NCBI GenBank assembly: GCA_018822665.1
Contig: JAHJJX010000031.1
Coordinates: forward strand, 31,549 to 95,548
DNA length: 64,000 nucleotides
Source: a bacterium
GTDB taxonomy: Bacteria; Campylobacterota; Campylobacteria; Campylobacterales; Sulfurimonadaceae
Direction of reading: 5' to 3'
The notes below the pieces were generated by a model that worked only from the letters and a program-made list of their open reading frames with translations, was not told where the DNA came from and did not search any database. Both the position numbers and the translations under genes were made by a program. Of this stretch, positions 5,461 through 52,397 are shown piece by piece. Positions within the stretch are counted from its first letter, which is position 1. Every line of letters begins with the position of its first letter.

Positions 5461-5463
5461 GCC

Positions 5464-7202: not shown

Positions 7203-7206
7203 AGAT

Positions 7207-13301: not shown

Positions 13302-13439
13302 AAACTTCTCCCTATTTTCCAAAGTATTTTCTGCTTGATTATATGAACTTTGCGTCACATTCCATGTCACAACTCATTTATTTAAACAAAGTATTATGTG
13401 GATTGTTCTACGAAAACAGTGTTTGGCGATAAAGAGATA

Positions 13440-20657: not shown

Positions 20658-20928
20658 CTTAAACTCCTTTAACCTTTGAAACAATCATGACTCCAAATCA
20701 CTTAAATAAATATTAACCAAAAAAATTTTATTAATTTTTTTATTAATTTTTCTTTGATAGATTCTGATTGGAGGGGAGTTCAAGGATGTCAAAATAATTT
20801 AAATTTATTTTATTTTATGGATTTTTTTAGCAGAAAATTTTCTTTTTTTTTGTTAATTGAGAGATATGCTGTTTTAAGAAGTTGTATAGGATTAAAAAAT
20901 AATTGAAATGTGATAAAACGAAAGAAAG

Positions 20929-35278: not shown

Positions 35279-35959
35279 TTCCGCCTGTGCGTAACTCTCG
35301 GGCGTGCCTATGTCTCTGTGGTACACATCATTTAAAAAGGTATTTATTTTCCCCATATACGCAGGCAAAACATCCAAACTGAAATCTGCCTCTTTTTTGC
35401 CAAGGCTTTTTATAAACTCTATGACACCTCTTTCGCAGATGTAAACCGCTCCGTTTGCAAGATTGGAGGGGGGATTTTGCACTTTTTCATAAAACTTCTG
35501 TACAACACCCTCTTTGTCCGGTTCAACAATTCCACATGCCGAGGGATTATCCGTTTTGAATGTCATCATCGTTATTTCGCACCCCTTTGGACGTTTGGCA
35601 TGTGCATCCATAAAGGCTTTAAAATCGCAAAAACAAAGATTGTCCGCATGCACCAGCATAAAAGCCTCATTTTGAAAAAAAGCCTCATTTGCCAAAAGAG
35701 TTCCGCCGGTATTTAAAAGCTTCTCTTCATGCGTAAGGGTGATTGCATCTTTAAATTTGGAATGATTTACAAAGCTTTCTACCTGCTTGGCCAAATAAGA
35801 AGTATTAATTAAAAATTCGTCCACTCCCGCGCCGCTGAGATTTTCAAGCCAATAGTGCAAAAGCGGTTTGCCCTTGATGGGCACTAAACATTTTGGGGTC
35901 CTAAGGGTAAGAGGACGAAGTCTCGTTCCCTCTCCTGCGGCTAAAAGAAGTGCTCTCAT
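35261..35959 (-). CDS. Sugar nucleotidyltransferase (HddC/RmlA-like)
   Basis: MRALLLAAGEGTRLRPLTLRTPKCLVPIKGKPLLHYWLENL. Confidence 0.85.
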   Translation of the reverse strand: MRALLLAAGEGTRLRPLTLRTPKCLVPIKGKPLLHYWLENLSGAGVDEFLINTSYLAKQVESFVNHSKFKDAITLTHEEKLLNTGGTLLANEAFFQNEAFMLVHADNLCFCDFKAFMDAHAKRPKGCEITMMTFKTDNPSACGIVEPDKEGVVQKFYEKVQNPPSNLANGAVYICERGVIEFIKSLGKKEADFSLDVLPAYMGKINTFLNDVYHRDIGTPESYAQAELEYGF

Positions 35960-37387
35960 CTATTCAAACTCTTTTAAAATCTCTTCTTTTTTAATAGGAA
36001 CATTTCCCACGCGGCTTATCTGAATGGCAGAGGCCAAAGAACCCAGATAAGCGGCTTCCCAGATATTTGCCCCTACACCCAGCGCCATAGCGCTGCAGGT
36101 AAGCAGAGAATCTCCCGCACCGCTTACGTCTTTTACGATATTGCCCAGTGCGCTTATATTGTCCGTGAGCAGTTTGTCTTTTGGAGTGTTGTATATCATC
36201 ATCCCCTCCGCGCCCAAAGTGGTAAAGATATATTTTGCATTGGAGACGACGGAGAGCTTATCGGAGAGGACAACCAGCCCTGATTCAAAATCATTGAGGG
36301 AGAGTCGTATCTCCCTCTCCGTAGGTGTCACCAGAGTCATCTCTTTGAACTTGGATATATCTCCCACTTGCGAGGAGCTTTGAGAATCCGCCGCCATCAA
36401 AATAGAGTTCTCAAGACCCAGCTTTGATATGTTTTGGATAAGGGTTTTGGTTAAAACTCCGTAACTGAAATCTGAAAACAGTATCAAATCGATATCTTTT
36501 ATCTCATGTGCTAGAGCTTCCAAAACCGTATTTTCAATATCTAGGCTGATAGAGTGCTGTTTGAGATGGTTTACCCGTAAAAGCGTTTTTGAACTAGCAC
36601 GAAATCTTTGTTTGAGCGTCGTCGGACGCGTACAGTCGGAGTACAAAAAGACGTCGATGCCCAAGGCTTCAAGCCCGTTTTTAACATATTCCTTATTTTC
36701 ATCTTCCCCGACGACGGAAAAGAACTTTACCTTTGCCCCGAGGGTTGCGGCATGAGAAGCAACGATTGCGGCTCCCCCTATAAACTTGTTGCTCGCAAGC
36801 GGACTCACCACGATAGTAGGGTCTTCCTGACTCATCCCCAAAGGCTCACAGGTGATATACTCATCGACAATGGTGTCGCCGATTACTAAAACATTTAAAT
36901 TTGAAAATTTCTCAACAATATCTCTGAGGTCTTGGAGTTTAAAACTGTGACGCTCAAGGTACGAGGCGCTGTGATTCACCTTGTAATTGGAGGTGAAGAA
37001 CTCTTTTTTTAACAAGTCCATTGAGGAAAAACCAATCTCGCCTGAACTAAAAAGCAATTTCCCCCCATACCCTTTGATTATCTCTAATTCAGGATTATAC
37101 TTGCTCTCGAACTCTTTTCCCTTTACGACGATATCGGGGCGATTTTTTTGTATGTAGGCAACAGCGCTCTCTTGCAAAATAAAAGCCTCATCCACATAAC
37201 TTGTCGCCCGTATCGATTCGAGTCGTACGTCCTGATTTATCCCTTTGTTAAAAGTTACATCATCACTGTTGACACCGACAATAAGGTAGGTTCCGCTCTC
37301 TTTTGCAAACTTTAAAAGTCGGAGGTGTCCGGGGTGGAGAATATTAAAATCACCATAAACAAAAACCGCTATTTTTTTATTTTTCAT
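35960..37387 (-). CDS. Fused cytidylyltransferase-like plus PfkB-family sugar kinase (HldE-like, domain order inverted)
   Basis: N-term VYGDFNILHPGHLRLLKFAKESG (nucleotidyltransferase HxGH), C-term VLVIGDTIVDEY...GGAAIVASHAATLGAKV...VKDVSGAGDSLL (PfkB). Confidence 0.82.
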   Translation of the reverse strand: MKNKKIAVFVYGDFNILHPGHLRLLKFAKESGTYLIVGVNSDDVTFNKGINQDVRLESIRATSYVDEAFILQESAVAYIQKNRPDIVVKGKEFESKYNPELEIIKGYGGKLLFSSGEIGFSSMDLLKKEFFTSNYKVNHSASYLERHSFKLQDLRDIVEKFSNLNVLVIGDTIVDEYITCEPLGMSQEDPTIVVSPLASNKFIGGAAIVASHAATLGAKVKFFSVVGEDENKEYVKNGLEALGIDVFLYSDCTRPTTLKQRFRASSKTLLRVNHLKQHSISLDIENTVLEALAHEIKDIDLILFSDFSYGVLTKTLIQNISKLGLENSILMAADSQSSSQVGDISKFKEMTLVTPTEREIRLSLNDFESGLVVLSDKLSVVSNAKYIFTTLGAEGMMIYNTPKDKLLTDNISALGNIVKDVSGAGDSLLTCSAMALGVGANIWEAAYLGSLASAIQISRVGNVPIKKEEILKEFE

Positions 37388-38249
37388 TATGTTTCCTAAA
37401 AAGTGTGATGTACTCTTTTAAATACGTATCTATCGGTTTTGGAGCAAAAAGAGGAATCTTTTCTTGTAATGCCCTTGTATCAAAAAACAAATCACCGGCT
37501 CTGAGCTCCTGCGCTTTTTCATATCGGATATCAAAAGGAATCTCCAAAAGAGAAAAAACTTTTTTGATTAGATTCATTAAAGAGATACTTGTTCCCGTTG
37601 CCACATTCAAAACACCTTCGAGCTCATTTTTTATGGCAAAATCCAAAACTTGCACCAAGATGCCCACAGGCAAAAAATCTCTTTGCAGCGAACCGTCTCC
37701 GACAAGAGCAGCCGACTTGTTCTTATAAATATTTGTCACGATTTTAGCGATTGTACTGTTGGTATAATCGTATTTTCCGTAAACGCCGCTTGCTCTTAGG
37801 CGCGTTAGTTTGATGCCGTTTTGAGCACAAAACACCTTGAGTATATATTCACCCGCAACTTTTGAAACAGCATAATAATCCTCGGGATTCAGCGGTGTAG
37901 ATTCATCGATGGCATGTGGAAGATTTTTAACTCCGTACACATCGATACTGCTAAAAAACAGCAGGTGTTTGACTTTGCACTCTTGAAGTTTACGAAGAAG
38001 ATTTTGAATCATAAGAATATTTTTATTCATAGATTCAAGGGAATTTTCTCTGAGTCTTGTGATGGAGGAGGCGAGAAGGAGCGTGTCCTCAGGCTTGAGG
38101 ATTTCAAGCGCTCTGCCAAGTGAATCTGCGTCTAGCAAATCGCACTCTTTGGAGCCAAAGCCCACTATCTCTTCACCCCGATTTTGAAAATACTCAAAAA
38201 TATTTTTTCCGATAAAACCGCTAGAGCCAAGAAGTACAATTTTTCCCAT
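37377..38249 (-). CDS. NAD-dependent sugar epimerase/dehydratase
   Basis: Start re-placed to MGKIVLLGSSGFIGKNIFEYF; YAVSKVAGE motif. Confidence 0.82.
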   Translation of the reverse strand: MGKIVLLGSSGFIGKNIFEYFQNRGEEIVGFGSKECDLLDADSLGRALEILKPEDTLLLASSITRLRENSLESMNKNILMIQNLLRKLQECKVKHLLFFSSIDVYGVKNLPHAIDESTPLNPEDYYAVSKVAGEYILKVFCAQNGIKLTRLRASGVYGKYDYTNSTIAKIVTNIYKNKSAALVGDGSLQRDFLPVGILVQVLDFAIKNELEGVLNVATGTSISLMNLIKKVFSLLEIPFDIRYEKAQELRAGDLFFDTRALQEKIPLFAPKPIDTYLKEYITLFRKHNEK

Positions 38250-38250
38250 T

Positions 38251-39330
38251 TTAGTCCTTGACCTCATTTTTGGGCTTGAGCCAGCCGCATCGGTTACACC
38301 CCTCGACAAGCCCCTCTTTTTTGATGACAGATTTAAACGCTCCAAAGGCTTTGCCGAAAATAATCTCCTCCAAACGCATCTCTTTGACATTTCCCATAGA
38401 GATAGCCATACAGGGACAGAGATTCCCGTCATAATTGATATGCACGCTCGACCACGGAAACTTGCAAGGCTTAAAATCTTTATAGTTCATCGCCTCTTCA
38501 TTGATGCAATCCAACTGAGCAAGAGAGTCTTCTTGGATGAGTGAGCCTACTTTTGGGTGTAAAAAAGATTTTTTCTTCTTCGCTTGATTGTACTCCTGAA
38601 TCTGTTTGAGCTGTTTTTTTATCTCTGCAAACTCGCCATAGACATAGGCGTGGGATTTTTCGTACATCTTGTCTGCATCGTAAATCTTATCGGAGTGTTG
38701 CAGATAGGAACCTTTTAAAAACTGAAACCCGTGGGTGTCACAGCCCAAATCTTCAACGCAGTATCTGTATATTTCAAACAAATCTTTTGCATTCTCATCC
38801 AAAATAGTCGTTTTTATATCCAAAACGCAACTGCTTTTGAGCGCATCTCTTTTTTTCACAAAATAGCGAAGCTTCTCTTCGAGTTCGCTCCACTCTTTTG
38901 GCGAGACATCACGAATGCTGTTTGTGATATTGTCTATGGAGATGGAGAGCACTTTAAAATTATCGTATTTAAGCATCTCATCTATAAGCTCATAGCTCAA
39001 GAGCAAACCGTTGGAGATGATATTGCAGTGCGCTTTACTTGCAACAATTTTAAAAAGCTCCCTAAAATTAGGAAATATCAGCGGTTCGCCGCCTGTGAGT
39101 GTGACTCTTGCATTTTGCGGAATCTGTTCAAGAAGATTGACCCAGTCCTCAAACTTCATATTTGAGTTCATAACTTTTTTTTCCTGAAAACAAAAACTGC
39201 ATTTTAAATTGCATCTGTTAGTAAGCACAAAAACATACCTGTGGGGAAGCACGTCTTCGTGCTCATACGCATACTCCGTAAACTCCAAAAGATTATTGTG
39301 AAAATCTATATTTTTATTTGTGCCAGTCAT
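38251..39330 (-). CDS. Radical SAM protein with SPASM-like C-terminal Cys cluster
   Basis: CNLKCSFC; TGGEPLI; C-terminal C...CPC...GCNRCGW. Confidence 0.85.
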   Translation of the reverse strand: MTGTNKNIDFHNNLLEFTEYAYEHEDVLPHRYVFVLTNRCNLKCSFCFQEKKVMNSNMKFEDWVNLLEQIPQNARVTLTGGEPLIFPNFRELFKIVASKAHCNIISNGLLLSYELIDEMLKYDNFKVLSISIDNITNSIRDVSPKEWSELEEKLRYFVKKRDALKSSCVLDIKTTILDENAKDLFEIYRYCVEDLGCDTHGFQFLKGSYLQHSDKIYDADKMYEKSHAYVYGEFAEIKKQLKQIQEYNQAKKKKSFLHPKVGSLIQEDSLAQLDCINEEAMNYKDFKPCKFPWSSVHINYDGNLCPCMAISMGNVKEMRLEEIIFGKAFGAFKSVIKKEGLVEGCNRCGWLKPKNEVKD

Positions 39331-40132
39331 TGCCGTGCCTTTTTAGTTTATAGAGTCCGCCGTCGGATTTTAGTTTATCCAAAAGAAGCGCTTCGTTTCT
39401 CCACGGGTCATGCACCACCGAAAAGTTTCTTCCGCTCACCAGAGCTTTTTCCTTGGAACGAAGCCATACAAAACATTCGTATATATCCTGCATGCTTGTT
39501 CCCTCGTTGTTTTGCATAAACTCTTTGGTCTTTTGATACTTCTCATCCCCTTTGTCGGAGTTTTCCAAAATCAAATCATGCACTTTTGTTTTTACCCAGC
39601 CGGGACCTATGAGCATAAACTTCATATCCTCGTTTTCCGCATCCAGATATTCACACATTTTCAAAAGAAGAATTTTTCCCGAAGCCACGGCGGAAAACTT
39701 TACGACCTCCGAATTGATACCGGCTGTTCCGAAAAAGAAAACATCGGTGATACCCGCCGTATTTCTGTATTTATGGAGTGTATGGAGCAGTTTTAACTGA
39801 TGTATGGAGTTGATATGTACAGAATCACTCCAGGCATGGAAGTCTGCTTCAAAAAAATTCTGCATAGGCAGCGGTGTCGCCGGAGCTGAGATATAGATGT
39901 CCCAAACGATATCGAGTTTTTTAAACGCATTCTCAAATTGATGGATACTGATTTGGCTTGCGAGTTCAATGCTATAGAGTGAGATATCGTCCTCTTCTTT
40001 AAAGCAGCCCTCCACGGAGCCCGATGTTCTGTAAGTACCGACCACCTTGTATCCGTCTTTTAAATATCTGCGGGCCAGTTCCCTGCCGATATCACTCCCC
40101 ACGCCGATAATCAGCACTACCTTTTTACCCAT
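39314..40132 (-). CDS. Short-chain dehydrogenase/reductase
   Basis: VLIIGVGSDIGRELARRYLKDGYKVVGTYRTSG. Confidence 0.75.
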   Translation of the reverse strand: MGKKVVLIIGVGSDIGRELARRYLKDGYKVVGTYRTSGSVEGCFKEEDDISLYSIELASQISIHQFENAFKKLDIVWDIYISAPATPLPMQNFFEADFHAWSDSVHINSIHQLKLLHTLHKYRNTAGITDVFFFGTAGINSEVVKFSAVASGKILLLKMCEYLDAENEDMKFMLIGPGWVKTKVHDLILENSDKGDEKYQKTKEFMQNNEGTSMQDIYECFVWLRSKEKALVSGRNFSVVHDPWRNEALLLDKLKSDGGLYKLKRHGNDWHK

Positions 40133-40135
40133 AGC

Positions 40136-41911
40136 CTAGACCCTGCTTTGAGTAATCATGAGACTTTTTAACTCATCCGCATCCAAAAACGGAGCCATAT
40201 CTTCGAGTGTCGTTGAAGCCAAAGAACCGTCCTCTTGCTTTTTAAACGCCATTCGGGGGATAAGCTCCTGCTCGGGTGATGTCATTATCTCACACACATA
40301 CGGCTTGTCCGAAGCCAAGAACTCTTTTATCGAAGTGCTTATGTCGTCCTTAACTGTTATTCTCTTATACGCAATCCCGTAAGCCGGTACCACTTTTGAG
40401 TAATCAGGCATACTGATGCCCCCTTTATCGGAGGAACCAGCATATCTCTCATCCAAAAAGGCCCCTTGCGTATGTCGTATGGCAAGGTAGCCTTCATTGT
40501 TTATCAGCAAGATTTTTACGGGAAGCTGATGATGGAAGATGGTCTGGAGTTCATGAATATTAAACTGCATGCTCCCATCCCCTATGATGCACAGCACTCT
40601 CTTTTTATCATGTGCAAAGCAGGCCCCTATGGCTTCTGGAAGTCCTATCCCCATAGAACCTATCCCTGCGGAAACTATCATCCTCTGCCCCTCTTTGAGG
40701 CACATAGACTGAAACGGCATATATAAAGCCGTTCCGCCCCCGTCAACGGCGATAATATCCTCTTCACTTAGTTCATCACTCAAAAGGTCTAAATACTCGT
40801 AGGGGTCAATATAAGCGCTCTCTTGGCTTTTGCTTTTATTGTATGTTCCGTATTTTAAACAGACATCATTCCACATGCCGAAGTCTGATGCAAATTTTTT
40901 GTCTTCAAGGAAATGGATGAAAGAGTTTAAAAACTCTTTGGCATCGCAATGGATAGAAAAATCCACCCTCACCGTCTCATGCTCAATCTCCTCTTTATCA
41001 ATATCAATCATCACTATTTTTGCATCTTTTGCAAACTGCTCAAACCTTGTCCCTGTCAAAGGAATACTCAAATGGGAACCTATACTGAGAATGAGGTCGC
41101 TGTTTTGAACGGCGAGATTGGCACCTCTTTGTCCTGCAATCCCCAGTCTTCCGCAATTGAGCGGGTTCTCTGCCCCAAACATATCGCTTGAGTTCCAGGT
41201 CGTGACAAAGGGGATGTTGAGATTTTTCACTAAAGTGTTTATCTCCTCTTTGCCACCGGAGAGTCTTACTCCGTTGCCCACGACAAAAAGGGGTCTTTTT
41301 GACTGCCCTATCATCTCCAACAACTTCTCAAAACTCCCCTTTTGTATTTTTGGTCTTTCATCTTTGGCTTCAAAACTTTCAAGTTCGCTTGGAGTAATCT
41401 CGCTCCACTGAAAATCCATAGGAACATCTATCCAGACAGGCCCGGGTCTGCCGCTTTTTGCTATATGGATAGCTTTTTGCATCTCATATTTTATCTTTTG
41501 GGGGTTATCAATCATAACGGCATACTTGCTGATACTCTCTACCAGGGTGACGATATCCATCTGCTGAGAGCCTACTTGGCGCAGAGGCGATTTATGATTC
41601 GTGTGCTCAAACCTTTGTTGTCCCGATATAAAGATGCAGGGGATAGAATCAAGATACGCCGCTGCGAGACCTGTAAGGGCATTTGTGCCCCCCGGTCCGG
41701 TCGTAACGATACAGGCACCCAAACCTTTGATTCTGGCATAGGCTTCAGCCGCACATGCCGCAGCCTGCTCGTGATGGGTGTAGACGGCTTCTATCTTCCC
41801 GTTTTTATCGATGGAATCAAAAAAATGTACGGCAGCACCGCCCGTAACGCCAAAGACGGTCTTAATCCCCTCTTGTGCTAAAACTTCTACCATATAATCC
41901 GTGAGTTTCAT
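40136..41911 (-). CDS. Thiamine diphosphate-dependent enzyme (acetolactate synthase-like)
   Basis: VFGVTGGAAVHFFDSI, HHEQAAACAAEAYAR, ThDP motif GDGSMQFNIHELQTIFHHQLPVKILLINN. Confidence 0.88.
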   Translation of the reverse strand: MKLTDYMVEVLAQEGIKTVFGVTGGAAVHFFDSIDKNGKIEAVYTHHEQAAACAAEAYARIKGLGACIVTTGPGGTNALTGLAAAYLDSIPCIFISGQQRFEHTNHKSPLRQVGSQQMDIVTLVESISKYAVMIDNPQKIKYEMQKAIHIAKSGRPGPVWIDVPMDFQWSEITPSELESFEAKDERPKIQKGSFEKLLEMIGQSKRPLFVVGNGVRLSGGKEEINTLVKNLNIPFVTTWNSSDMFGAENPLNCGRLGIAGQRGANLAVQNSDLILSIGSHLSIPLTGTRFEQFAKDAKIVMIDIDKEEIEHETVRVDFSIHCDAKEFLNSFIHFLEDKKFASDFGMWNDVCLKYGTYNKSKSQESAYIDPYEYLDLLSDELSEEDIIAVDGGGTALYMPFQSMCLKEGQRMIVSAGIGSMGIGLPEAIGACFAHDKKRVLCIIGDGSMQFNIHELQTIFHHQLPVKILLINNEGYLAIRHTQGAFLDERYAGSSDKGGISMPDYSKVVPAYGIAYKRITVKDDISTSIKEFLASDKPYVCEIMTSPEQELIPRMAFKKQEDGSLASTTLEDMAPFLDADELKSLMITQSRV

Positions 41912-42912
41912 ATCTTCCCTTTTATCTGCATTGCTATTTTTAAAATCATATCCTCTTGCCCCGCGATAACCTTTTGTCTGCCCAGCTCTTGTAATATCTC
42001 GCCGACATCCAGATTATGCTCTTTTGCAATCTTTTGTACCTGGTATTTAAATCCGGAAAAGACCCCGTGCACTCCGCCTAAAATACTCGAACTGTTTGAA
42101 TAGGGAAGCTCTTTTAAGAGATGCGCATGAGCATAATCGGCTAAATCCAAAACTTTATCCACCCTCGCTTTAAAAGAATAGCCCTCTCTCTTGAGAAGCG
42201 CGGCTAAAATCTCAAGCTGGGCATTTCCCGCCCCTGCTCCAAATCCCCGTGAGCAGCCGTCTGCTATTGTCGCACCCGATTGAATGCTTGAGAGCGTATT
42301 TGCCACCGCCAGCCCTAAGTTGTTATGAGCATGAAAGGCAACAGGTTTTTCAAGATGCGCCCTGAGATACGATATCTTTTCGCTTACCGTTTGGGGAGTC
42401 ATATACCCTGCAGAATCAAACAAGAAGATGGCATCCGCCCCGTAAGAGACACCTATCTGCGCCTGTTTCAACAACTCCTCTTTGCAAACCATGTGCGACA
42501 TCATAAGCGCCAAATAAACATCCTTGCCGCTTGATTTTATAAAATCGATATAACTCACGCTCAGAGTTGCCTCACTGCAATGCACCGCCACCCTGAAGAT
42601 ATCTACCCCGATATCTACGGCATCTTTTAAATCATTTTTAATCGACACAAAACCGGGTAAAACAAGGGTGGAGAGTTTTGTTTTATCCAAGTTTGCCTTG
42701 GCGCTCTCAAACATCTCTTTGTCGCTGAGCAAAGCCATACCCACCTGAAAAGAGGAACCCGCCAGCCCGTTTCCGTGACCCACTTCGACTATATCTATGC
42801 CGCTTGATTCGGCTAATTTTGTATAGTTATGAATCTGCTCTTTTGTTATTTGATGAGAGAGGGCATGATTGCCGTCCCTTAATGTCGAGTCATAAAAAAG
42901 TAGTTCTCTCAT
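41908..42912 (-). CDS. 4-hydroxy-2-oxovalerate aldolase-like (DmpG/MhpE family)
   Basis: DSTLRDGNHALSHQITKEQI, FHAHNNLGLAVANTL, GFGAGAGNAQLEILAALL. Confidence 0.88.
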   Translation of the reverse strand: MRELLFYDSTLRDGNHALSHQITKEQIHNYTKLAESSGIDIVEVGHGNGLAGSSFQVGMALLSDKEMFESAKANLDKTKLSTLVLPGFVSIKNDLKDAVDIGVDIFRVAVHCSEATLSVSYIDFIKSSGKDVYLALMMSHMVCKEELLKQAQIGVSYGADAIFLFDSAGYMTPQTVSEKISYLRAHLEKPVAFHAHNNLGLAVANTLSSIQSGATIADGCSRGFGAGAGNAQLEILAALLKREGYSFKARVDKVLDLADYAHAHLLKELPYSNSSSILGGVHGVFSGFKYQVQKIAKEHNLDVGEILQELGRQKVIAGQEDMILKIAMQIKGKI

Positions 42913-43796
42913 TTTGTCTCTTTGTTTTGTGCTAGATTTTCTGCAACATATATTGCAGAACAGGTGATGATATCCAGGTTTCCTGCATACGCGGGCAGAT
43001 AATCTCCCGCTCCGTTCACGCTTATCATGATTGTCAAGATCCCCTCCTCATAGAGCGGTGCAATCACGATGCCGTAACCCGGAATATACTCTTGCAAGCG
43101 TCGGACAACGGCATTAAAAGCAGGTATAAACTCTCTTTGTTTATACTCCTTTACAAGTGCTTTGATACTTACCTGCATATTGATACATGGCTGTGCAGGG
43201 TTGACAATAAGTATCGTTTTGGCATTTTTTACGCCGCAAAACTCCTCTATCGCACTTTTTGTCACATCAATATACTCGCTGATATTCTCTCGTGTAGCCA
43301 TTCCCGCACTCTTGGATGAGATGGTTGAGACCACCTCCACATATTCCAAGACTCCGTGTATTTTAGAAATGGCATCTATAAGGGGGATGCAGGCCTGCCC
43401 CCCGCATGTCACCATATTTACATTTTTATACTTTTTTGCTTCATCCAGGTTTATTTCAGGAACAATGGCCTGCCCGAGTTTGGAGGGTGTCATATCTATG
43501 ACATCCATTCCAAGTTCGTCAAATCTTTGAGCATTTTTCAGATGTGATGCAGCGGAAGTTGCATCAAACACCAGGTCGATTGCATCCCTGTTTTTTATAA
43601 TGGCTTCCATGCTGTTGCTGAAGGTTTTGACTCCCAGCGAAGCGGCAAAAGCCAAACCCTCCGATTGTTCGTCCCGTCCTGAGATCAACACCACATGAAG
43701 ATAGGGTGATTTTTCTGCTTTTACCAGCAAATCCAAAGCGATATTTCCGCTTCCCAAAATAGCAATATTTATTTTTTTATTTACAGATTTTTTCAT
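42909..43796 (-). CDS. Acetaldehyde dehydrogenase (acylating)-like (DmpF/MhpF family)
   Basis: ILGSGNIALDLL, MTPSKLGQAIVPEINL, catalytic-Cys region VTCGGQACIPLI; 4-nt overlap with aldolase gene. Confidence 0.88.
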   Translation of the reverse strand: MKKSVNKKINIAILGSGNIALDLLVKAEKSPYLHVVLISGRDEQSEGLAFAASLGVKTFSNSMEAIIKNRDAIDLVFDATSAASHLKNAQRFDELGMDVIDMTPSKLGQAIVPEINLDEAKKYKNVNMVTCGGQACIPLIDAISKIHGVLEYVEVVSTISSKSAGMATRENISEYIDVTKSAIEEFCGVKNAKTILIVNPAQPCINMQVSIKALVKEYKQREFIPAFNAVVRRLQEYIPGYGIVIAPLYEEGILTIMISVNGAGDYLPAYAGNLDIITCSAIYVAENLAQNKETK

Positions 43797-43807
43797 ATAT
43801 TCTTTAC

Positions 43808-45238
43808 TTAAAAAACAAGCGTTTGTCTTGATTTTTTTCTGATTTCATTGAGTTCTTCCACACTCAAACCCCACAAAGAAGCTACTTTTTCTATTCTGTT
43901 TGGAGCAAAATTGATTCTGTCCCACTCATAAAGTCTTAATATGCTTATATCCTGTGCGCTCCATTCATCCGATTTTATCTGCGAATATCTCCAGTCTGTT
44001 TTTGGAAACTCATCGTTATGCGACAAAAACTCTCCCATAGAGGCTATGCTGTAAAGCTCGGTGCCATACAGAGGCACCGCCACAAAAAATTTCACATAAT
44101 CCGCACCGCAATGTTCGGCAAAATATATAGTTTCTCGTATCTCTTCCCAAGTCTCCCCCGGAAAACCTATGATGAAATTCGCTATACAGTGCATGCCGTA
44201 CTCTTTGACTTTGCGAATGATATTTGGGACCTCTTTTAAATCTTTTATAGGTTTTTTGACAATCTGCTTTAAGACCCTCTGCGTTCCGGATTCTATCGCC
44301 ACGTTTAAGCCGATACAGCCGGACTCTTTCATCAGTCTGAGGTGTTTATCCGTAAGTAAGAAAAGGGCAAATGCCGTTCCCACCCATCGCAGGTTTACCT
44401 CTTTGTCTATCATCTCCTGAAATAAAGAAGCGGCATATCTTCCCCCATCAGCCATAAGCATATTGTCATCGCCAAATACGATTGACTTTATACCATATCG
44501 CTCTTTTAAAAATAAAATCTCTTCCACTACATTTTTTGGGTCTTTGTATCTTACCTTTTTACCCGATATCATCTCCACCTGGCAAAATGAACAGCCAAAA
44601 GGGCATCCCCTAGTCGTATTTACGCTGTAAGAGGGATATTCAGGGGGTCGGTTTGGTCCGATTCGCTCCCCCCTTTGAAGATACTCTTCAAAATTTATAT
44701 AGGAGTAATCAGGCCAGGGAAGCGTGTTTAAATCCTCAACCCAGACTATCTCCTGAACATGGACCTGAGCGTTTGCATCTCTGTAAATAAGCCCTTTTTT
44801 GGGGAATTCTCCCTTGCCCTGCAAATAAAGGAGCAGCTCTTTTAAGACAAACTCCCCCTCTCCGTTTACGCCGTAATCCAAATCTTGGTTTCTAAAAGCA
44901 AAGGCATGTTTGGTTGTTATATGCACGCCTCCTGCGATAGTAATCATCGCGGAGTTCACCTCTTTGGCAAGCTCTATGGCTGTATCCAGAGTGTCCTGGT
45001 ATTCGGAGGAGAGTATGGAGATACCGATATAATCGGGGTTAATCTCTTTGAGCCTGTTTTTAAACTCCTCCCTGCTCATATCATAAAACTGCGCATCTAT
45101 AATGTGCACTTCTACGATATCTTTCACCATAGCGGCTAAAAGACAGAGCGTTACGGGATTTAAATCCCAGACCGTATTCATATCCTCTTTCTGCCATCTT
45201 TGGTTTGGATAGGTTAAGACTAATTTTTTCACATTCAA
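43808..45238 (-). CDS. Cobalamin-binding-domain radical SAM protein
   Basis: N-term B12-binding-like IDAQFYDMSREEFKNRLKEINPDYIGISILSSEY...GGVHIT; radical SAM CPFGCSFCQ. Confidence 0.85.
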   Translation of the reverse strand: MNVKKLVLTYPNQRWQKEDMNTVWDLNPVTLCLLAAMVKDIVEVHIIDAQFYDMSREEFKNRLKEINPDYIGISILSSEYQDTLDTAIELAKEVNSAMITIAGGVHITTKHAFAFRNQDLDYGVNGEGEFVLKELLLYLQGKGEFPKKGLIYRDANAQVHVQEIVWVEDLNTLPWPDYSYINFEEYLQRGERIGPNRPPEYPSYSVNTTRGCPFGCSFCQVEMISGKKVRYKDPKNVVEEILFLKERYGIKSIVFGDDNMLMADGGRYAASLFQEMIDKEVNLRWVGTAFALFLLTDKHLRLMKESGCIGLNVAIESGTQRVLKQIVKKPIKDLKEVPNIIRKVKEYGMHCIANFIIGFPGETWEEIRETIYFAEHCGADYVKFFVAVPLYGTELYSIASMGEFLSHNDEFPKTDWRYSQIKSDEWSAQDISILRLYEWDRINFAPNRIEKVASLWGLSVEELNEIRKKSRQTLVF

Positions 45239-45243
45239 TCCCT

Positions 45244-45903
45244 TTAGGGTATAAACCAGTAGTAGTCACCCTCGTAACCACACTCTTTAAAAAACGCTTT
45301 CCACTCTGCCGTATGCATCATTGTGAGTGCCGTAAGGTTCCAGGCTTCCATCGCTTTTTTTTCCTCATCATCTCTATAAGCATCAAGCGTAATAAAAGCA
45401 TCTTTTTTACTCACTCTCATAATTTCTTTAAGAGCTATTTTCATCTCATCTTTATCTAAATTGTGTAATGTTGTTATAGAGATAACTAAATCAAAACTGT
45501 TATCTTCAAATGGCAAACGCATCGCATTTGCCACTTGAAGATACTCTTTCACCTCCTCTTTGGCATGTGAAATTGCATATTCGGATATATCAACTCCCCT
45601 TACACCAATTTCGGGTATAAGCCTTTGAAAGTCATAAAGCATAAAACCTTTAGCACAACCGATATCCAATATTTTACTACTCTTATCAAGTTTGTAATAC
45701 TCTTTAAATGTTGGAATCACATCCTCCCAAAACTTTGGACTATAATAAAATCCGCCATACCCATGACTTCTCTCACCGTCAAAAAATTCTTTAGAAAATT
45801 GTCGCGCCAAGGCTTTATCTTGTTCTGTTTTCTCTTCTAATCTTTTACTCAAATCCCTCTTTGTTTTAGGGTAGTTTTGCATCAGATTTATCTCTTTACC
45901 CAT
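45244..45903 (-). CDS. Class I SAM-dependent methyltransferase
   Basis: SKILDIGCAKGFMLYDFQRL..GVRGVDISEYAI. Confidence 0.82.
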   Translation of the reverse strand: MGKEINLMQNYPKTKRDLSKRLEEKTEQDKALARQFSKEFFDGERSHGYGGFYYSPKFWEDVIPTFKEYYKLDKSSKILDIGCAKGFMLYDFQRLIPEIGVRGVDISEYAISHAKEEVKEYLQVANAMRLPFEDNSFDLVISITTLHNLDKDEMKIALKEIMRVSKKDAFITLDAYRDDEEKKAMEAWNLTALTMMHTAEWKAFFKECGYEGDYYWFIP

Positions 45904-46979
45904 TACACAAAGCCCATATGTTCTTTATCAACATCTAAATATTTAAATATTAGTTTATTCTTCTCATTAACAGCACAGTGATGGTTACAATCTATGGACG
46001 GATTGACATTAAAAAATTTATCTTTTTCGTTCATCCAGAGCTCTTTAAATCTTCTCTTTTTTATACTTCCCAATCCACCCGTGTCCAAATTATATGCTTT
46101 GTCATGACATGTATAAACATTCATATCAGCCCCGATTACCGGATTTATTTGCACATATGGACACCACTTATAATCTTTGTCAAATTTATAATCTAGTAGA
46201 TGATAACTATCAAACACTTCAAATGAGGCATCCTCTAATTCATCCTTAACCTGCATGGACAGATTCTTCGCTTCTTGGTAAATCGGCTCATGATATCTAT
46301 TGTTTTCTATCCCGTTGTTGCCAATAACACAAGGTGCGATTTTAATACTATCAACACCAATCTCTTTCATTAGCTTTGAAAAGTTATAAATCTCTTTATA
46401 GTTCTTGTTATCAACGATAAAGCTGATACCGAGATTACACTTTCTCTTAGGTATCTTTGCAAAGTTTTTCATGTTGTTGATAACTCTTGTGAACTCTCCG
46501 TGCTTTACATTTCTATACTTAGCATAACTCTCATCATCCCATCCATCAATGGAGACTCTTACCCAAGTTCCATATTTTGCAAATACATCGGCTATCTCAC
46601 CCTCTAATCTTGAACCGTTTGTTAAAGATGCAAATTTAATACTGCTTGTAGCCAAATTCTGTACAGTTTCTAATAGATGAGGGTAAAGAAACGGCTCACC
46701 CCCACCGCTGAAAGTTATTGATTGAACTTCCATATCAATACAGTCTTCAATGATTTCTCTCATTTTATCTTTAGGAATTGTATCTTTGATTGTCATATCT
46801 TTACCAAGCTGAATATCATCCAGACTCTGATAGGAGCAGTACCAACATGAATGATTACATACATTGGTGGGCTTGATTCTAATATGCAGCGGCGCTTTTA
46901 TCGTATCTACCTCTTTAGATAAAGAGTCAAGCTTATCTTGAAAATGAAATATTTTATACTCAGAATATTTAGTTGCCAT
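45903..46979 (-). CDS. Radical SAM protein with SPASM-like C-terminus
   Basis: CNHSCWYCS; SGGGEPFLYPHL; C-terminal Cys-containing extension. Confidence 0.85.
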   Translation of the reverse strand: MATKYSEYKIFHFQDKLDSLSKEVDTIKAPLHIRIKPTNVCNHSCWYCSYQSLDDIQLGKDMTIKDTIPKDKMREIIEDCIDMEVQSITFSGGGEPFLYPHLLETVQNLATSSIKFASLTNGSRLEGEIADVFAKYGTWVRVSIDGWDDESYAKYRNVKHGEFTRVINNMKNFAKIPKRKCNLGISFIVDNKNYKEIYNFSKLMKEIGVDSIKIAPCVIGNNGIENNRYHEPIYQEAKNLSMQVKDELEDASFEVFDSYHLLDYKFDKDYKWCPYVQINPVIGADMNVYTCHDKAYNLDTGGLGSIKKRRFKELWMNEKDKFFNVNPSIDCNHHCAVNEKNKLIFKYLDVDKEHMGFV

Positions 46980-46992
46980 ATTAACCCGCTTT

Positions 46993-47490
46993 TTATAAAC
47001 ATCTTAAATATGTCGGACCATTAGAGGCAAACATATCTTCTACATCTTGCTGTAAACTTTTTACAGTCGGTGCAAAAAGTTTAAAATTTTTAAAAATTTC
47101 CATCATCTGCACATCATCACTATCCATGCAGTGACTTCGCCCTAGCTTATCAAAGTAGTTATCGGCACCTACACCGATAAGTTTAACATTCATTTTATGC
47201 TCGTTCAAATCATAGCGTATCTGCTCATAAGCACGCATAACCAAAAACGGTACTTGAGAATATACTATCGGTTTAAGTCCTGCCAAATACATTCCTGCAC
47301 TCATGCTAATAGTAGCCTGTTCACAAATACCTACATTAAAAACTCTCTCTTTATGGTTATCAAAGTAGTTATCAAGAACAGCAAACCCCATATCTCCGAC
47401 TAAAAGAGCCATTTTTTCATCATATTTGAAGTAACTGTAGATTTCACTCATTACCTCTTTTTTTGTTACTAACCTACTCATCAGTTTCAC
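46993..47490 (-). CDS. Transketolase pyrimidine-binding (C-terminal subunit) domain, short
   Basis: FNVGICEQATISMSAGMYLAGLKPIVYSQ; only 165 aa, appears to lack the usual third domain. Confidence 0.8.
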   Translation of the reverse strand: MKLMSRLVTKKEVMSEIYSYFKYDEKMALLVGDMGFAVLDNYFDNHKERVFNVGICEQATISMSAGMYLAGLKPIVYSQVPFLVMRAYEQIRYDLNEHKMNVKLIGVGADNYFDKLGRSHCMDSDDVQMMEIFKNFKLFAPTVKSLQQDVEDMFASNGPTYLRCL

Positions 47491-48265
47491 CTAAAACGTA
47501 ACCGTCTTGAGTTGGACATCTAAAGTGATACGCTATTGAATTTTCACAAGGCTTTAGCCCTTTTCCTTTTACGGTATCACAAAACAGAATCGAAAAATTT
47601 GAGTTTTTATTTGTAAAAAACTCTCCCATCTTCTCTTTTAAGAGAGTCTCATTGTGCCCATCTATTTTTGAATAATTATCACTGTAACTACTCAAAACTT
47701 TAGCAAGTCTCTCATTATCAAGTCCAACATCTTCAACTCTATCCATTGCTTGAAGTCCGTTTGCATCCACAATTAAAAGAAGATTATCAAGCTTAAATCT
47801 ATATGCAAGTCCAAGAGCTTCAAAATTACTCCCCTCTTGCATCTCGCCATCCCCTACAATACAAACAACCTTATTACTCATATTTTGCATTTTAAACGCA
47901 TGTGCCATACCGACGGCTATGGGCAATCCGTGTCCTAACGATCCTGTTGAGGCCTCAATCATATAATCACTGTTTTTAGTTAAACACCCTTTTATAGATG
48001 CTCCGTTATAAAAACTCTCCAACTCGCTGTTTGGTAAAAATCCAAGTTCATTTAAAATAATATAATAGGCATAAGCACCGTGCCCTTTGGAAAAGAGAAC
48101 TCTGTCTCTGCTCTCATCTTTTACATTTTTTGTATTGTAAGTCAAAAAATCTCTAAATAAAACCGTGAGCATCTCCACGCACGAAAGGGAGGGAGCAAGA
48201 TGCCCCGCACCGCTTTTGCACGAGAGTTCTATCGTCTTTTTCCGTATATCCGCTGCTTCAAGCAT
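47474..48265 (-). CDS. Transketolase N-terminal (ThDP pyrophosphate-binding) subunit
   Basis: GHLAPSLSCVEMLTVLF, FSKGHGAYAYYIIL, VGDGEMQEGSNFEALGLAYRFKLDNLLLIVDANGLQ. Confidence 0.88.
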   Translation of the reverse strand: MLEAADIRKKTIELSCKSGAGHLAPSLSCVEMLTVLFRDFLTYNTKNVKDESRDRVLFSKGHGAYAYYIILNELGFLPNSELESFYNGASIKGCLTKNSDYMIEASTGSLGHGLPIAVGMAHAFKMQNMSNKVVCIVGDGEMQEGSNFEALGLAYRFKLDNLLLIVDANGLQAMDRVEDVGLDNERLAKVLSSYSDNYSKIDGHNETLLKEKMGEFFTNKNSNFSILFCDTVKGKGLKPCENSIAYHFRCPTQDGYVLGETDE

Positions 48266-49259
48266 CCTTGTCTCCAAGACACTCAAACCACTCTTTTGTC
48301 GCTTCTTGGATACTGTCCTCATCCCATACGGGAGCTTCTCTCCACTGCTCTATATTCTCAAGCATCGTCTTCACACCCTCTTCAAAACTCACTTTTGGAG
48401 TCCAGCCGAGCATGGTTTTTATCTTTGTTATATCGGCATAGGTGCATTCCGGCTCTCCGGGTCTTTTTGAGATATGCACCTTCTCCCCTCCCAAAAGTTC
48501 GACCAGATAGTTTATACTGTAGGTGTTATCGCTTCCCACATTAAATATCTCTTGGACGTAGGAGCTTTGGCAGGCGGTGTAACATGCATCTACGATATCC
48601 GTTACATAGGTAAAATCCCGTGTTTGTTCTCCGTCGCCGACTATCGTCAGAGGCTTTTTGTTTAAAAGCTGTGCCAAAAACACCCCAAAAACAGCTCCGT
48701 ATGTTCCGCCGGTTCTGTGCCTTATCCCGTAGACATTAAAAAATCGCATGCTCACAACCGGCATCTTGTACACCTGACCCCAGTGCATCACATACTGCTC
48801 CCCTACCGTTTTGGTGTGGGCATAGGGGTATTCCGGTCGTATGGCACTGCTCTCGGGTGTCGGATACACATCGGGTATCCCATAGCATGAGCTTGAGGCG
48901 GCATACACGAACTTTTTAAGGTTTTTCGATTTTCTGCTCGCTTGCAAAACCCGCATCGTACCGTCAACATTTGCCTGATGGTATTTTAGCGGTTCATTTA
49001 TAGAGGGCACGATATCCGCCAAAGCGGCATAATGAAACACATAATCCACATCAGCAAAGACCTCGTCCAAAGAGAGCTTATAGTCACCGATATCGGCTTG
49101 AATAAATCGGACTTTACCCTTATGATGCTCTATATTTTCCAATCTTCCGTTTGCAAGATTATCGATAACCGTCACTTCATAATTTTTAGAGACCAATAAA
49201 TCTACCATGTGCGAGCCTATAAATCCTGCTCCTCCGGTTACAATTGCTTTCATTATCAA
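48258..49259 (-). CDS. NAD-dependent sugar epimerase (UDP-glucose/GlcNAc 4-epimerase-like)
   Basis: AIVTGGAGFIGSHMVDLL, YAASSSCYG, YPYAHTKTVGEQ. Confidence 0.87.
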   Translation of the reverse strand: MIMKAIVTGGAGFIGSHMVDLLVSKNYEVTVIDNLANGRLENIEHHKGKVRFIQADIGDYKLSLDEVFADVDYVFHYAALADIVPSINEPLKYHQANVDGTMRVLQASRKSKNLKKFVYAASSSCYGIPDVYPTPESSAIRPEYPYAHTKTVGEQYVMHWGQVYKMPVVSMRFFNVYGIRHRTGGTYGAVFGVFLAQLLNKKPLTIVGDGEQTRDFTYVTDIVDACYTACQSSYVQEIFNVGSDNTYSINYLVELLGGEKVHISKRPGEPECTYADITKIKTMLGWTPKVSFEEGVKTMLENIEQWREAPVWDEDSIQEATKEWFECLGDKDA

Positions 49260-49262
49260 TCC

Positions 49263-50357
49263 TTAAATAAAATTATCATGGGCATGTGGATTCTTCAGTC
49301 TGAAAAGGTAACGGTTTACCTCATCCATTCTGCAATTTACCCTGCAATTCTTTATATCCAACTCATTTTTTACATATTCGTAGGATTTTTTTCTTTTGTC
49401 GCTTTCCCATATCTGGCTGAAACTGTTCTCATATATATTTCCATAGCAAAACTTATCATCGCCCAGATACGCACTGCACCCGAAAACTTTTCCGTCTGCC
49501 GCGATATATCCCCAAAAGAAGGGTGTAGAATGGCATGTGGAATAGGAATGCGTTTTTTGCACATGCTTTTTCATCGTATTTGCACGAAAGACCACGCTGA
49601 AATTTTCATCATTCAAACACTCCAACTCTTTTTCCAAATCCTGTGTATCGGAATAATCGATATCTGCATATTTTGTGGTTTGGCTAAAGTTGTGCTGCGA
49701 ATAAGGCTTGATAACCAGATAGTCTACTCCCGTCTCTTTACACTTTTGCGCCAAAATAACGGCCTCATCCTTGTTTTCGGGCAAAAGCAGCATCTGTACG
49801 CCGAGCGTGCATTTTAAATTGTTTTGTTTTCTATACTCCAGGGCATATTCAAGATTATGCATAACCCTCTCAAAATCAAGCTCTTTTGTTTGATGTATCT
49901 GCGCATAACTCTTCGCTGTTCCCCCGTTGAGGCTCACCTTTATCCAAGAGCAGCTCTCTATACATCTTTCAATGTTTTTTTTATTCAGCGGTACGAAATT
50001 TGTCGTGAGTGAAGTATCTATTCCCACACGTGAGCAATGTTCCACGATAAGGTCCAAGTCTTTAAAAAGAAGAGGTTCCCCCTCCCCCGCAAACATCACG
50101 CTTTTTACACCTTTTTGAGCCATGTCGCTCAGGGTGTTTTTTAAAACATCAAACTCCAAACCTATGTTTTCATACCCCATATAATCAAGTGCACAAAAGG
50201 TGCAGCGGTGGTTGCACCCGCCATAAGGTGAAATCTCTACATACACGGGATATATCTTTTTTAACTTTTGCCAATCCTCTTTTGCTTCAAGCCACTTAGC
50301 AACCCGAAGAGGATGCAGACCCATCTTATGAGAGTCTATTGAAAATTTATCGCTCAT
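49263..50357 (-). CDS. Radical SAM protein with SPASM-like C-terminus
   Basis: CNHRCTFCALDY; MFAGEGEPLLFKDL; C-terminal C..., GCSAYLGD, CRVNC. Confidence 0.85.
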   Translation of the reverse strand: MSDKFSIDSHKMGLHPLRVAKWLEAKEDWQKLKKIYPVYVEISPYGGCNHRCTFCALDYMGYENIGLEFDVLKNTLSDMAQKGVKSVMFAGEGEPLLFKDLDLIVEHCSRVGIDTSLTTNFVPLNKKNIERCIESCSWIKVSLNGGTAKSYAQIHQTKELDFERVMHNLEYALEYRKQNNLKCTLGVQMLLLPENKDEAVILAQKCKETGVDYLVIKPYSQHNFSQTTKYADIDYSDTQDLEKELECLNDENFSVVFRANTMKKHVQKTHSYSTCHSTPFFWGYIAADGKVFGCSAYLGDDKFCYGNIYENSFSQIWESDKRKKSYEYVKNELDIKNCRVNCRMDEVNRYLFRLKNPHAHDNFI

Positions 50358-51761
50358 CTAACCCACTTCTTGTTCGATTTTTTTCACCATTCTTGTAACA
50401 AAAGCGTTAAAGGACATCTCCTCAGCTATTCCATACACATTTTTTTTCGGCTCTTCGCCTAATATATCGACAAGCTCCTCATAATTTGAAAACAAAAGCG
50501 TATTTTCTTCATAATCATACTTCTCTTCGCTCATCGCTCTGCAATCATAAGACACCGGAATAGTTCCACATGCCGCCATCTCCGGCAATCTTTGCTGATA
50601 CATATCAAAAGAATGGGCATAAACCGAGTAGCGGGCGCTGTTGTAAACCTTCGAGAGTTCTTTGCCGTGGGGAAGTTCTCCTTTAAAATACGGAGCGACA
50701 AGGGGATTATTTTCCCAATGCCTGCCATACACTTCGACAGCTATGTTCTTTTGTTTGCATATCCACTCCACGCTGCATTCGCGTACGGCCATTGCAAGAG
50801 GGCTCAACAAGATTAAATTATAGTCTATCTCATATTTTCGTGAGAGTTCCCCAACATACTCCGGCGTTATTTTCATCCCCGTGTTCAGGTTTTCTCTAAA
50901 AATATTATAAAGTTCTCTGAATCTCTTATCGCTTATCTCTTTATTTAAAACAGCGGCATAAGAGGAACCTATAAAAATGATTTTATTCTCTTTTTGAATT
51001 GTTTCATCCCTGTAAAAATCACTCTTACTGACACAAAACCTCTGAATCTCATAGCTCTCTTTGATAAATTTTTTCTTCATTATCATATCCGAGAGCGCAT
51101 AAATAATGTCTCTTTGTCTTAAATGGATTTTGCTCTCATCATATAAAATCGGCATCGGGTCTTGAAACCAGACAAAATTAAAAATAGAATCGCTTAAAAA
51201 AGTATTGTTGAGATTATTGATATTGATTGTGGCATGGGGCTGAAACTCTGACATAATTTTAAAAGAACTTAAATCTTCTATCCCCTCATACAATTCAAAA
51301 CAAACTTCATAACCCATATCTCTTAAAGTATTGGCGATATTTTTAGATACGTACTGCATCACTTGGGTTGAAACATTGGCGCAGAGGTGAAATCTTAAAC
51401 GCTCGCTAAAATCCGGCGAAGAGTTTTTCATTTTTTGCAAATAATGTGTATTAAGCTGTGTTCTATACATTTTTGCCTGTTCAATGGATAAATTAAAGTT
51501 CATTAACACCTCTAATTTAATATCACTCGATATTTCCAATCCCGTAAAATCTATTTTTGAGGGTATTCTGTATGTGCCGTAAGCCAATGTTTCGAGCAGA
51601 TTTTCTATTGGAAGATGTACAAGATTTGCCAAATCGCTCTCTATCTTTTCACCTTCATAGTAACATAACTGTAAATAATAATTGTTTTCGCCCCATCTGT
51701 TTTGTTGTGAGGCAACCCGCAGAGCTTCCTTTGGGCTAAGGAAGTAAATATCTTCATGCAT
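50358..51761 (-). CDS. Glycosyltransferase-like protein (CgeB-like)
   Basis: YGRHWENNPLVAPYFKGELPHGKELSKVYNSARYSVYAHSFDMYQQRLPEMAACGTIPVSYD. Confidence 0.7.
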   Translation of the reverse strand: MHEDIYFLSPKEALRVASQQNRWGENNYYLQLCYYEGEKIESDLANLVHLPIENLLETLAYGTYRIPSKIDFTGLEISSDIKLEVLMNFNLSIEQAKMYRTQLNTHYLQKMKNSSPDFSERLRFHLCANVSTQVMQYVSKNIANTLRDMGYEVCFELYEGIEDLSSFKIMSEFQPHATININNLNNTFLSDSIFNFVWFQDPMPILYDESKIHLRQRDIIYALSDMIMKKKFIKESYEIQRFCVSKSDFYRDETIQKENKIIFIGSSYAAVLNKEISDKRFRELYNIFRENLNTGMKITPEYVGELSRKYEIDYNLILLSPLAMAVRECSVEWICKQKNIAVEVYGRHWENNPLVAPYFKGELPHGKELSKVYNSARYSVYAHSFDMYQQRLPEMAACGTIPVSYDCRAMSEEKYDYEENTLLFSNYEELVDILGEEPKKNVYGIAEEMSFNAFVTRMVKKIEQEVG

Positions 51762-51839: not shown

Positions 51840-52397
51840 GTGAAAAACTTTGCAAAAGATTACACAGGCAGACTCATAGCACTTTTGCAAAGCATAGATA
51901 CGGATGCTATCGCAGAAATCATTCAGGCACTCGAGCGCACAAAAGGACGCATTTACATCATAGGCAACGGAGGAAGTGCCGCTACCGCTTCGCACATGGT
52001 GAATGATTTGGGGGTCGGACTCAAGCGAAGAGATATAAGAAATTTTGATGTGCAGAGTCTCAGCGACAACACTCCCGTCTGCAGTGCCATCGCCAATGAT
52101 ATCGGGTACGAAAATGTTTTTTACATGCAGCTCAAAAACAGAATCTCCAAGGATGATCTGCTTATCGCCATCTCTTGCAGCGGAAACTCTTCAAACATCA
52201 CAAAAGCGCTAAGCTATGCAAGAGAGCAGGGAGCTACCGTCATCGGCGTCACGGGATTTGACGGAGGGGAACTCAAAAGACTCTCCCATATCAGTTTTCA
52301 TGTCGATACCCCAAAAAACGAATACGGACTCGTGGAAGATATGCACATGATTTTAGACCACATCATCTACAGCTACTACATAGACCAAGCAAAATAA
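51840..52397 (+). CDS. SIS-domain phosphosugar isomerase (GmhA-like), GTG start
   Basis: IYIIGNGGSAATASHMVNDLGVG, LLIAISCSGNSSNITKAL; RBS AAGAGGAG. Confidence 0.85.
   Translation: MKNFAKDYTGRLIALLQSIDTDAIAEIIQALERTKGRIYIIGNGGSAATASHMVNDLGVGLKRRDIRNFDVQSLSDNTPVCSAIANDIGYENVFYMQLKNRISKDDLLIAISCSGNSSNITKALSYAREQGATVIGVTGFDGGELKRLSHISFHVDTPKNEYGLVEDMHMILDHIIYSYYIDQAK

Follow-up and report, generated by a model that had tools for sequence, protein, structure and literature searches.

Sugars branched by enzymes dependent on thiamine diphosphate (ThDP) are known from O-antigens and antibiotics, and most gene clusters with a YerE-like carboligase are without a known sugar structure (PMC12247030). 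Among these enzymes JanthE (PDB 8rph) couples 2-oxoacids to ketones (PMC12188165), and ErwE, with erwiniose as its product, prefers 4-hydroxy-2-oxo-butanoate, -pentanoate and -hexanoate as donors; a split transketolase was never yet shown to branch a sugar (PMC12247030). In the present study we analysed a 64,000-nucleotide stretch of DNA, here called the window, from a Sulfurimonas-like genome (2.507 Mb, 44 contigs), in particular an operon on its minus strand running from 51761 to 35261. A reading made from the sequence only had seen there a 12-kb sugar cluster with four radical S-adenosylmethionine (radical-SAM) proteins, here RS1, the B12 protein, RS3 and RS4. The cluster is co-oriented as described, but the true unit is larger and tight, with 16 genes in about 16.5 kb, neighbouring genes being -17 to +13 nt apart throughout. 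We consider it rather probable that the product of the operon is a so far undescribed nucleotide sugar with a branched chain and a higher carbon number, probably derived from a heptose, and that a CgeB-like transferase puts this sugar on flagellin or another surface glycan. An undescribed monosaccharide had been suggested before and is supported in outline by the neighbouring enzymes, although the carboligase, the aldolase and dehydrogenase, the split transketolase and the heptose-activation genes had been overlooked; these carbon-carbon-joining enzymes and heptose-activation genes are the strongest clue to the product.

Carboligase and split transketolase

Three translationally coupled genes, each sharing 4 nt with the next, lie between the genes of RS1 and the B12 protein:

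40136..41911, minus strand: YerE-like ThDP-dependent carboligase with acetolactate-synthase fold (best PDB match 8rph, JanthE; 100/100 clade)
41908..42912, minus strand: 4-hydroxy-2-oxovalerate aldolase (TIGR03217, 323.6 bits, cut-off 286)
42909..43796, minus strand: acylating acetaldehyde dehydrogenase (TIGR03215, 336 bits, cut-off 282)

The carboligase matched 8rph with 440 bits, the next best PDB entry being an acetolactate synthase with 307, and it possesses the ThDP motif GDG as well as a C-terminal tail common to JanthE. In the tree it forms one clade (100/100) with JanthE and three homologues from Rfb cassettes of Campylobacterales, separate from the genome's own IlvB, from acetolactate synthase (ALS) II and from plant acetohydroxyacid synthase. 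Housekeeping valine and isoleucine synthesis was rejected as its role, since the genome encodes its own IlvB elsewhere (31% identity); on plasmids the YerE-like gene found no match at 1e-60. The predicted reaction of 40136-41911 is the coupling of a decarboxylated 2-oxoacid to a keto-sugar.

Run synthetically, the aldolase and acetaldehyde dehydrogenase pair yields a 4-hydroxy-2-oxoacid, which is established chemistry for these families; the pair in the operon probably works in this direction and would supply donor acids of the ErwE type. For comparison 299 genomes of the order were used (G numbers denote genomes, L numbers loci). In the aldolase tree the window copy groups with three copies from sugar clusters (100/100), and a catabolic meta-cleavage role of the pair was rejected, as copies which lack a carboligase within the stretch examined (G226, G253, G279, G261) form a separate 100/100 group.

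The second carbon-carbon-joining system is a transketolase split into two genes:

47474..48265, minus strand: TktN, ThDP-binding subunit (PF00456, 1.5e-24; listed open reading frame to 48322, likely start ATG 48265)
46993..47490, minus strand: TktC, pyrimidine-binding subunit (PF02779 only)

Both the PP and the Pyr ThDP domains (PF00456, PF02779) are thus present, and TktN has its best PDB match in 6yak, a split-chain transketolase. The transketolase C-terminal domain PF02780 was absent from the window and from three close RS4-linked orthologues tested, and present in distant ones.

Both systems recur in other sugar clusters of the order. The carboligase, aldolase and dehydrogenase trio was found in one layout in three genomes (G194, G150, G089; L066-L068), flanked by RfbF-RfbG and RfbH, whose families were checked over cut-off in L067 (G150). 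In L113 (G126) and L114 (G043) TktN-TktC occupies the slot between RfbG and RfbH (families checked in L113), and in L115 (G273) the same slot holds an ALS-like gene together with TktN and TktC (families checked). RfbF, RfbG and RfbH, the suppliers of cytidine diphosphate (CDP)-4-keto-3,6-dideoxyhexose, are all present in L067, L113 and L115. TktN-TktC also stands after GmhA-, HddC- and HddA-like genes in heptose cassettes (L120-L122). Because each system swaps into the same slot of a cassette for CDP-3,6-dideoxyhexose, sequence comparison points to the addition of carbon branches to keto-sugars as the most likely function of the carboligase trio as well as of the split transketolase. No CDP-glucose 4,6-dehydratase RfbG over cut-off was found in the genome (best 97 versus 278 bits), and hence the sugar acceptor must differ from that of the CDP-3,6-dideoxyhexose pathway; neither RfbF nor RfbH was seen in the window.

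Radical-SAM proteins and their setting

The proteins that might prepare such an acceptor are encoded by:

38251..39330, minus strand: RS1, radical-SAM protein with twitch-type C-terminus (PF04055, 1.6e-17; PF13186, 7.1e-12)
43808..45238, minus strand: B12-binding radical-SAM protein (PF02310, 2.4e-14; PF04055, 2.1e-27)
45903..46979, minus strand: RS3, radical-SAM protein, twitch-type C-terminus by cysteine pattern (PF04055, 2.2e-21)
49263..50357, minus strand: RS4, radical-SAM protein with twitch-type C-terminus (PF04055, 6.5e-18; PF13186)

Coordinates and strand of all four had been given exactly by the sequence-only reading, and the motifs it named are present (CNLKCSFC in RS1, CPFGCSFC in the B12 protein, CNHSCWYC in RS3, CNHRCTFC in RS4). 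The B12-binding domain PF02310 occurs in 43808-45238 only, as claimed, and the co-orientation with sugar epimerases, a methyltransferase and a glycosyltransferase (CgeB-like) was likewise confirmed. Three SPASM-like, cysteine-rich C-termini had also been described: four C-terminal cysteines are indeed conserved in alignments of all three non-B12 proteins (C275/C294/C338/C342 in RS4, C273/C291/C331/C335 in RS3, C289/C307/C345/C348 in RS1), but only RS1 and RS4 reach the SPASM profile, and the cysteine pattern is that of a twitch domain. RS4, RS3 and RS1 each combine CX3CX2C with four cysteines for one auxiliary cluster, a pattern which predicts a twitch domain with one cluster and not a SPASM domain with two. 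The auxiliary cluster of BtrN is held by four cysteines (PMC9012708), and those of RS4 fit its pattern in the alignment.

In both profile and fold searches with RS4 (model with a predicted local distance difference test score, pLDDT, of 81) DesII ranked first and SuiB second, followed in the fold search by SkfB and BlsE, with BtrN further down. RS1 found its best PDB match in SkfB, its C-terminus matching BtrN. Identities in the fold matches to known radical-SAM enzymes are 15-18%, and the twitch proteins score below every NCBIfam cut-off. With DesII, SuiB and BlsE as closest folds, the twitch enzymes would carry out an oxidation or a deoxygenation. In the B12 protein the B12-binding domain precedes the radical-SAM core, as in cobalamin-dependent radical-SAM methylases; it belongs to no characterised methylase family (best NCBIfam 160 bits versus a cut-off of 575), and its low-confidence model (pLDDT 65), with fold matches to TsrM, MgmA, AprD4 and OxsB, resembles methylases and the diol-dehydratase AprD4 alike, so that it cannot choose between methylase and dehydratase.

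RS4 is the most widespread of the surveyed radical-SAM proteins (18/299 genomes). In 17/17 testable genomes TktN/TktC are found at most about 3 kb from it; in G024 the contig breaks off too early. There are two recurrent layouts. Layout A (the window, G181, G276, G212, G004, G214, G176, G096 twice, and G261) comprises a GmhA-like gene, RS4, a short-chain dehydrogenase/reductase (SDR), TktN, TktC, a second radical-SAM gene and/or a methyltransferase, cargo, and HldE-like and HddC-like genes, and in 4/4 members tested its transketolase is without the C-terminal domain. Layout B (G134, G111, G046, G271, G050, G159, G183, G297) consists of RS4, TktN, a long TktC and then RS3 with the methyltransferase and/or an RS5-like gene, without heptose genes in the stretch read. 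RS3 orthologues (53-62%) with the methyltransferase and transketolase close by occur in G134, G111, G046, G271 and G297. The B12 protein is rare (3/299 genomes, orthologues in two others), and a scan of genome contigs with it gave one locus, with a 67%-identical relative in a metagenome-assembled Sulfurimonas genome of the same genus as the window; an RS1 relative was found in only one other genome of the 299. Outside the order, a Solidesulfovibrio plasmid carries an RS4 homologue (47%) beside SIS, PfkB and more radical-SAM genes, and about 8 kb from these are pse genes and a split transketolase; phage relatives of RS4 are 25-26% matches only.

Several related loci showed features of their own. 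An alphaproteobacterial glycan cluster on an Azospirillum oryzae plasmid (L112) combines an RS5-like radical-SAM gene (60%) with genes for SIS, PfkB and a split ThDP enzyme. In G134 (L055:7879-9029) and G046 (L057:8958-10071) a second RS4-like gene is broken into two reading frames, whereas in G111 (L056:10633-11745) it is intact. The glycan loci L055, L059, L009 and L049 are radical-SAM-rich too, each with 5 to 7 reading frames within 20 kb that have the CX3CX2C motif, and the cargo of a Sulfurimonas relative (L009:3164-7030) includes a probable carbamoyltransferase (5339-7030) among other genes.

In the genome, 26 radical-SAM matches were counted, 25 of them over the Pfam cut-off. Four such genes in 12.1 kb compare with about 0.12 expected from this density (P about 8e-6 for four in a fixed window, an arithmetic which ignores the operonic clustering of related genes), and radical-SAM-rich relatives of the arrangement recur in other genomes.

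The operon sits between pseudaminic- and legionaminic-acid-type genes, with pseB, pseC, pseF and pseG upstream and a LegC-type aminotransferase, a NeuC-type epimerase and a WbuX-type amidotransferase downstream, all over cut-off. Operon and flanks together come after fliS/fliD-like genes, and position and gene content suggest a flagellin-glycosylation region. For the nonulosonate synthase of the pse set (30426-31478) the NeuB model gives a higher score (355) than the PseI model does (267), both below cut-off. WbqC-like and PIG-L-like genes (31948-33320) adjoin a Maf-like gene, a trio which recurs in G276 (L049). Three very large reading frames occupy 7812-20684, one with subtilisin-like motifs (13733-16132), and type II secretion/pilus-like genes (9-7644) adjoin them.

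Proposed product and alternative explanations

Sugar activation, modification and transfer would fall to the remaining genes of the operon and a divergent neighbour:

35261..35959, minus strand: HddC-like sugar-1-phosphate nucleotidyltransferase (PF00483, 4.6e-39; orthologues 58-79% in related loci)
35960..37387, minus strand: HldE-like fusion in reversed order, with N-terminal cytidylyltransferase-like and C-terminal heptose-7-phosphate-kinase-like PfkB part (PF01467, PF00294; TIGR02198 204 bits, TIGR02199 66 bits, both below cut-off)
37377..38249, minus strand: Epi2, extended-SDR epimerase/dehydratase (PF01370, 1.6e-35; listed reading frame to 38432, likely start ATG 38249)
39314..40132, minus strand: SDR-fold protein (PF00106, 1.9e-8)
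45244..45903, minus strand: class I SAM methyltransferase (PF08241, 3e-19; 77-79% orthologues in G261 and G096)
48258..49259, minus strand: Epi1, GalE-like extended SDR (PF01370, 3.2e-58; 79-84% orthologues beside RS4 in six other genomes)
50358..51761, minus strand: CgeB-like glycosyltransferase (PF13524, 1.3e-8; 35-49% homologues in related loci)
51840..52397, plus strand: GmhA-like SIS isomerase, divergent from the operon (TIGR00441, 101 bits, below cut-off; 55-79% orthologues in GmhA-type loci)

The curated models for D-glycero-D-manno-heptose activation were missed throughout (GmhA 101 versus 209, HldE/HddA 204 versus 345, HddC 73 versus 300 bits), and the best NCBIfam match of 35261-35959, also below cut-off, is of the mannose-1-phosphate guanylyltransferase type. 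The genome has its own housekeeping HldE (31% identity in the kinase part) and GmhA (37%), and because these as well as the housekeeping transketolase and IlvB are separate genes encoded elsewhere, the operon copies are specialised.

Starting from the enzyme families, the YerE-like clade, the exchange of the slot, the linkage of RS4 with the transketolase and the lack of an over-cut-off RfbG, all seen in sequence comparison, we infer substrates, order of steps, final sugar and each radical step as follows. The GmhA-, kinase- and nucleotidyltransferase-like paralogues would provide a nucleoside diphosphate (NDP)-heptose-type sugar, the ring of which would be oxidised and/or deoxygenated by SDR enzymes together with the twitch radical-SAM enzymes, chiefly RS4, to a keto-(deoxy)sugar, a step replacing the job of RfbG and RfbH in the yersiniose and erwiniose pathways. 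The acetaldehyde dehydrogenase, starting from an acyl-coenzyme A, would together with the aldolase form a 4-hydroxy-2-oxoacid, which the YerE-like carboligase would decarboxylate and couple to the ketone, and the split transketolase would add a two-carbon branch, or did so in the parent pathway. Methyltransferase, B12 protein, RS1 and RS3 may then tailor the product before transfer. Radical steps on a sugar, as suggested earlier, thereby hold in outline, given the sugar-activation paralogues, the keto-sugar carboligases and DesII, BlsE and BtrN among the RS4 matches, but dehydration, epimerisation and C-methylation are not attributable to single proteins.

Several points weigh against this pathway. 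We know of no enzyme here, or close orthologue, with a tested function. The heptose label relies on scores below cut-off, and there is no phosphatase in the operon. The SDR-fold protein at 39314-40132, candidate reducer of the acyl branch, is without the canonical YxxxK active-site motif in its sequence and without a close homologue in the compared loci, and is not necessarily a reductase. The ALS-like enzyme of L115 is not a member of the YerE-like clade and gives weaker support. The layout-A TktN proteins form a long-branched 100/100 clade of ten, well apart from the Rfb-linked TktN, and with the C-terminal domain missing the window's pair may catalyse another reaction than the Rfb-linked forms do; for the transketolase of layout A, an action on the backbone is conceivable. 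The presence of two carboligase systems may mean that the operon serves two sugars, and the peptide-acting SuiB and SkfB are among the best fold matches of RS4.

It is unlikely, albeit conceivable, that the split transketolase builds the backbone and not a branch, delivering a ketose phosphate (e.g., octulose phosphate) to the GmhA-like isomerase, kinase and nucleotidyltransferase for an NDP-octose or other higher sugar, comparable to the octose supply of lincosamides, with the YerE-like trio as a separate add-on. The separate TktN clade without C-terminal domain would fit, and its members share their loci with HldE-like and HddC-like genes and, in most cases, GmhA-like ones; however, RS4-transketolase pairs occur without GmhA, HldE or HddC in the stretch read (L055-L057, L061-L065), related split transketolases stand in the slot between RfbG and RfbH, where a hexose backbone already exists, and the genome has a housekeeping transketolase. 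A mosaic, in which exchangeable cassettes (the RS4/transketolase/heptose core; RS3 with methyltransferase; aldolase, dehydrogenase and carboligase; RS1 with Epi2) make two or more separate building blocks, appears quite improbable: the cassettes are found apart (the trio in L066-L068, RS3 with methyltransferase in L055-L057, the Epi2-RS1 pair in L059 of G096) and G096 carries two core copies with different cargo, but the operon has a single glycosyltransferase and a single sugar-activation set, and all its genes are tightly coupled. Peptide modification (a RiPP-like product, i.e., a ribosomally synthesised and post-translationally modified peptide, or flagellin side chains), also raised by the sequence-only reading, is very improbable and was dismissed as the leading explanation, for although peptide maturases often have twitch/SPASM C-termini, the RS4 fold matches include SuiB and SkfB, and SkfB is the best PDB match of RS1, the gaps of at most 13 nt leave no space for a precursor gene, the scores of all RiPP-family models stay far from their cut-offs, and RS4 matches the sugar enzyme DesII best.

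Returning to the branched heptose derivative, we tentatively propose, as a doubtful extension, a new branched-sugar route with twitch radical-SAM enzymes in place of the 4,6-dehydratase and 3-dehydrase RfbG/RfbH. They would make the keto-(deoxy)sugar that serves ThDP carboligases as acceptor, and a heptose-type backbone would gain a C4 branch from a hydroxy-oxoacid and/or C2 from a minimal split transketolase; this would be an exchangeable radical-SAM/transketolase glycan module across Campylobacterota, reaching other phyla. Should the branched heptose derivative itself hold true, several uncharacterised sugar-acting radical-SAM families would gain a pathway, and a new class of monosaccharides on bacterial flagella or surfaces would be suggested. 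Among the operon and its relatives, the type of carboligase, the cassette for sugar supply and the radical-SAM partners vary independently of one another, so that reactions should be assignable by comparison.

Comparison with known systems

The combination of two carboligase systems with four radical-SAM enzymes was not found described in our literature search, the scope of which excluded subscription papers on YerE-like clusters. Its parts have described counterparts. With YerE, ErwE and JanthE (PMC12247030, PMC12188165) the operon shares a carboligase of the JanthE clade with GDG motif and JanthE-like tail, as well as coupled genes that could supply 4-hydroxy-2-oxoacid donors of the ErwE type; however, the acceptors for yersiniose and erwiniose are CDP-4-keto-3,6-dideoxyhexoses, whereas this genome is without an over-cut-off RfbG, and the carboligase is surrounded by heptose-type activation and radical-SAM genes. 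The split transketolases of miharamycin and amipurimycin, with a proposed role in keto-sugar branching, are likewise encoded by two genes in a sugar-modification cluster, but the 13 candidates listed are all from Streptomycetes (PMC12247030), whereas the present one is from Campylobacterota, linked to RS4 and without the C-terminal domain. The twitch dehydrogenase BtrN and the other sugar radical-SAM enzymes DesII, BlsE and AprD4 resemble the radical-SAM proteins in the CX3CX2C core and in fold matches, and RS4, RS3 and RS1 have four C-terminal cysteines as has BtrN (PMC9012708), yet the low identity of these matches and scores below all NCBIfam cut-offs set the operon proteins apart. The logic of isomerase, kinase and nucleotidyltransferase is that of GmhA-HddA-HddC in the guanosine diphosphate-heptose pathway of capsule heptoses, and the cassettes of relatives pair with a split transketolase; the operon kinase differs in being of the PfkB type and fused in reversed order behind a cytidylyltransferase-like domain, with scores below cut-off. 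Overall, we rate the operon as a variant of the pathways to ThDP-branched sugars, unusual in its radical-SAM component.

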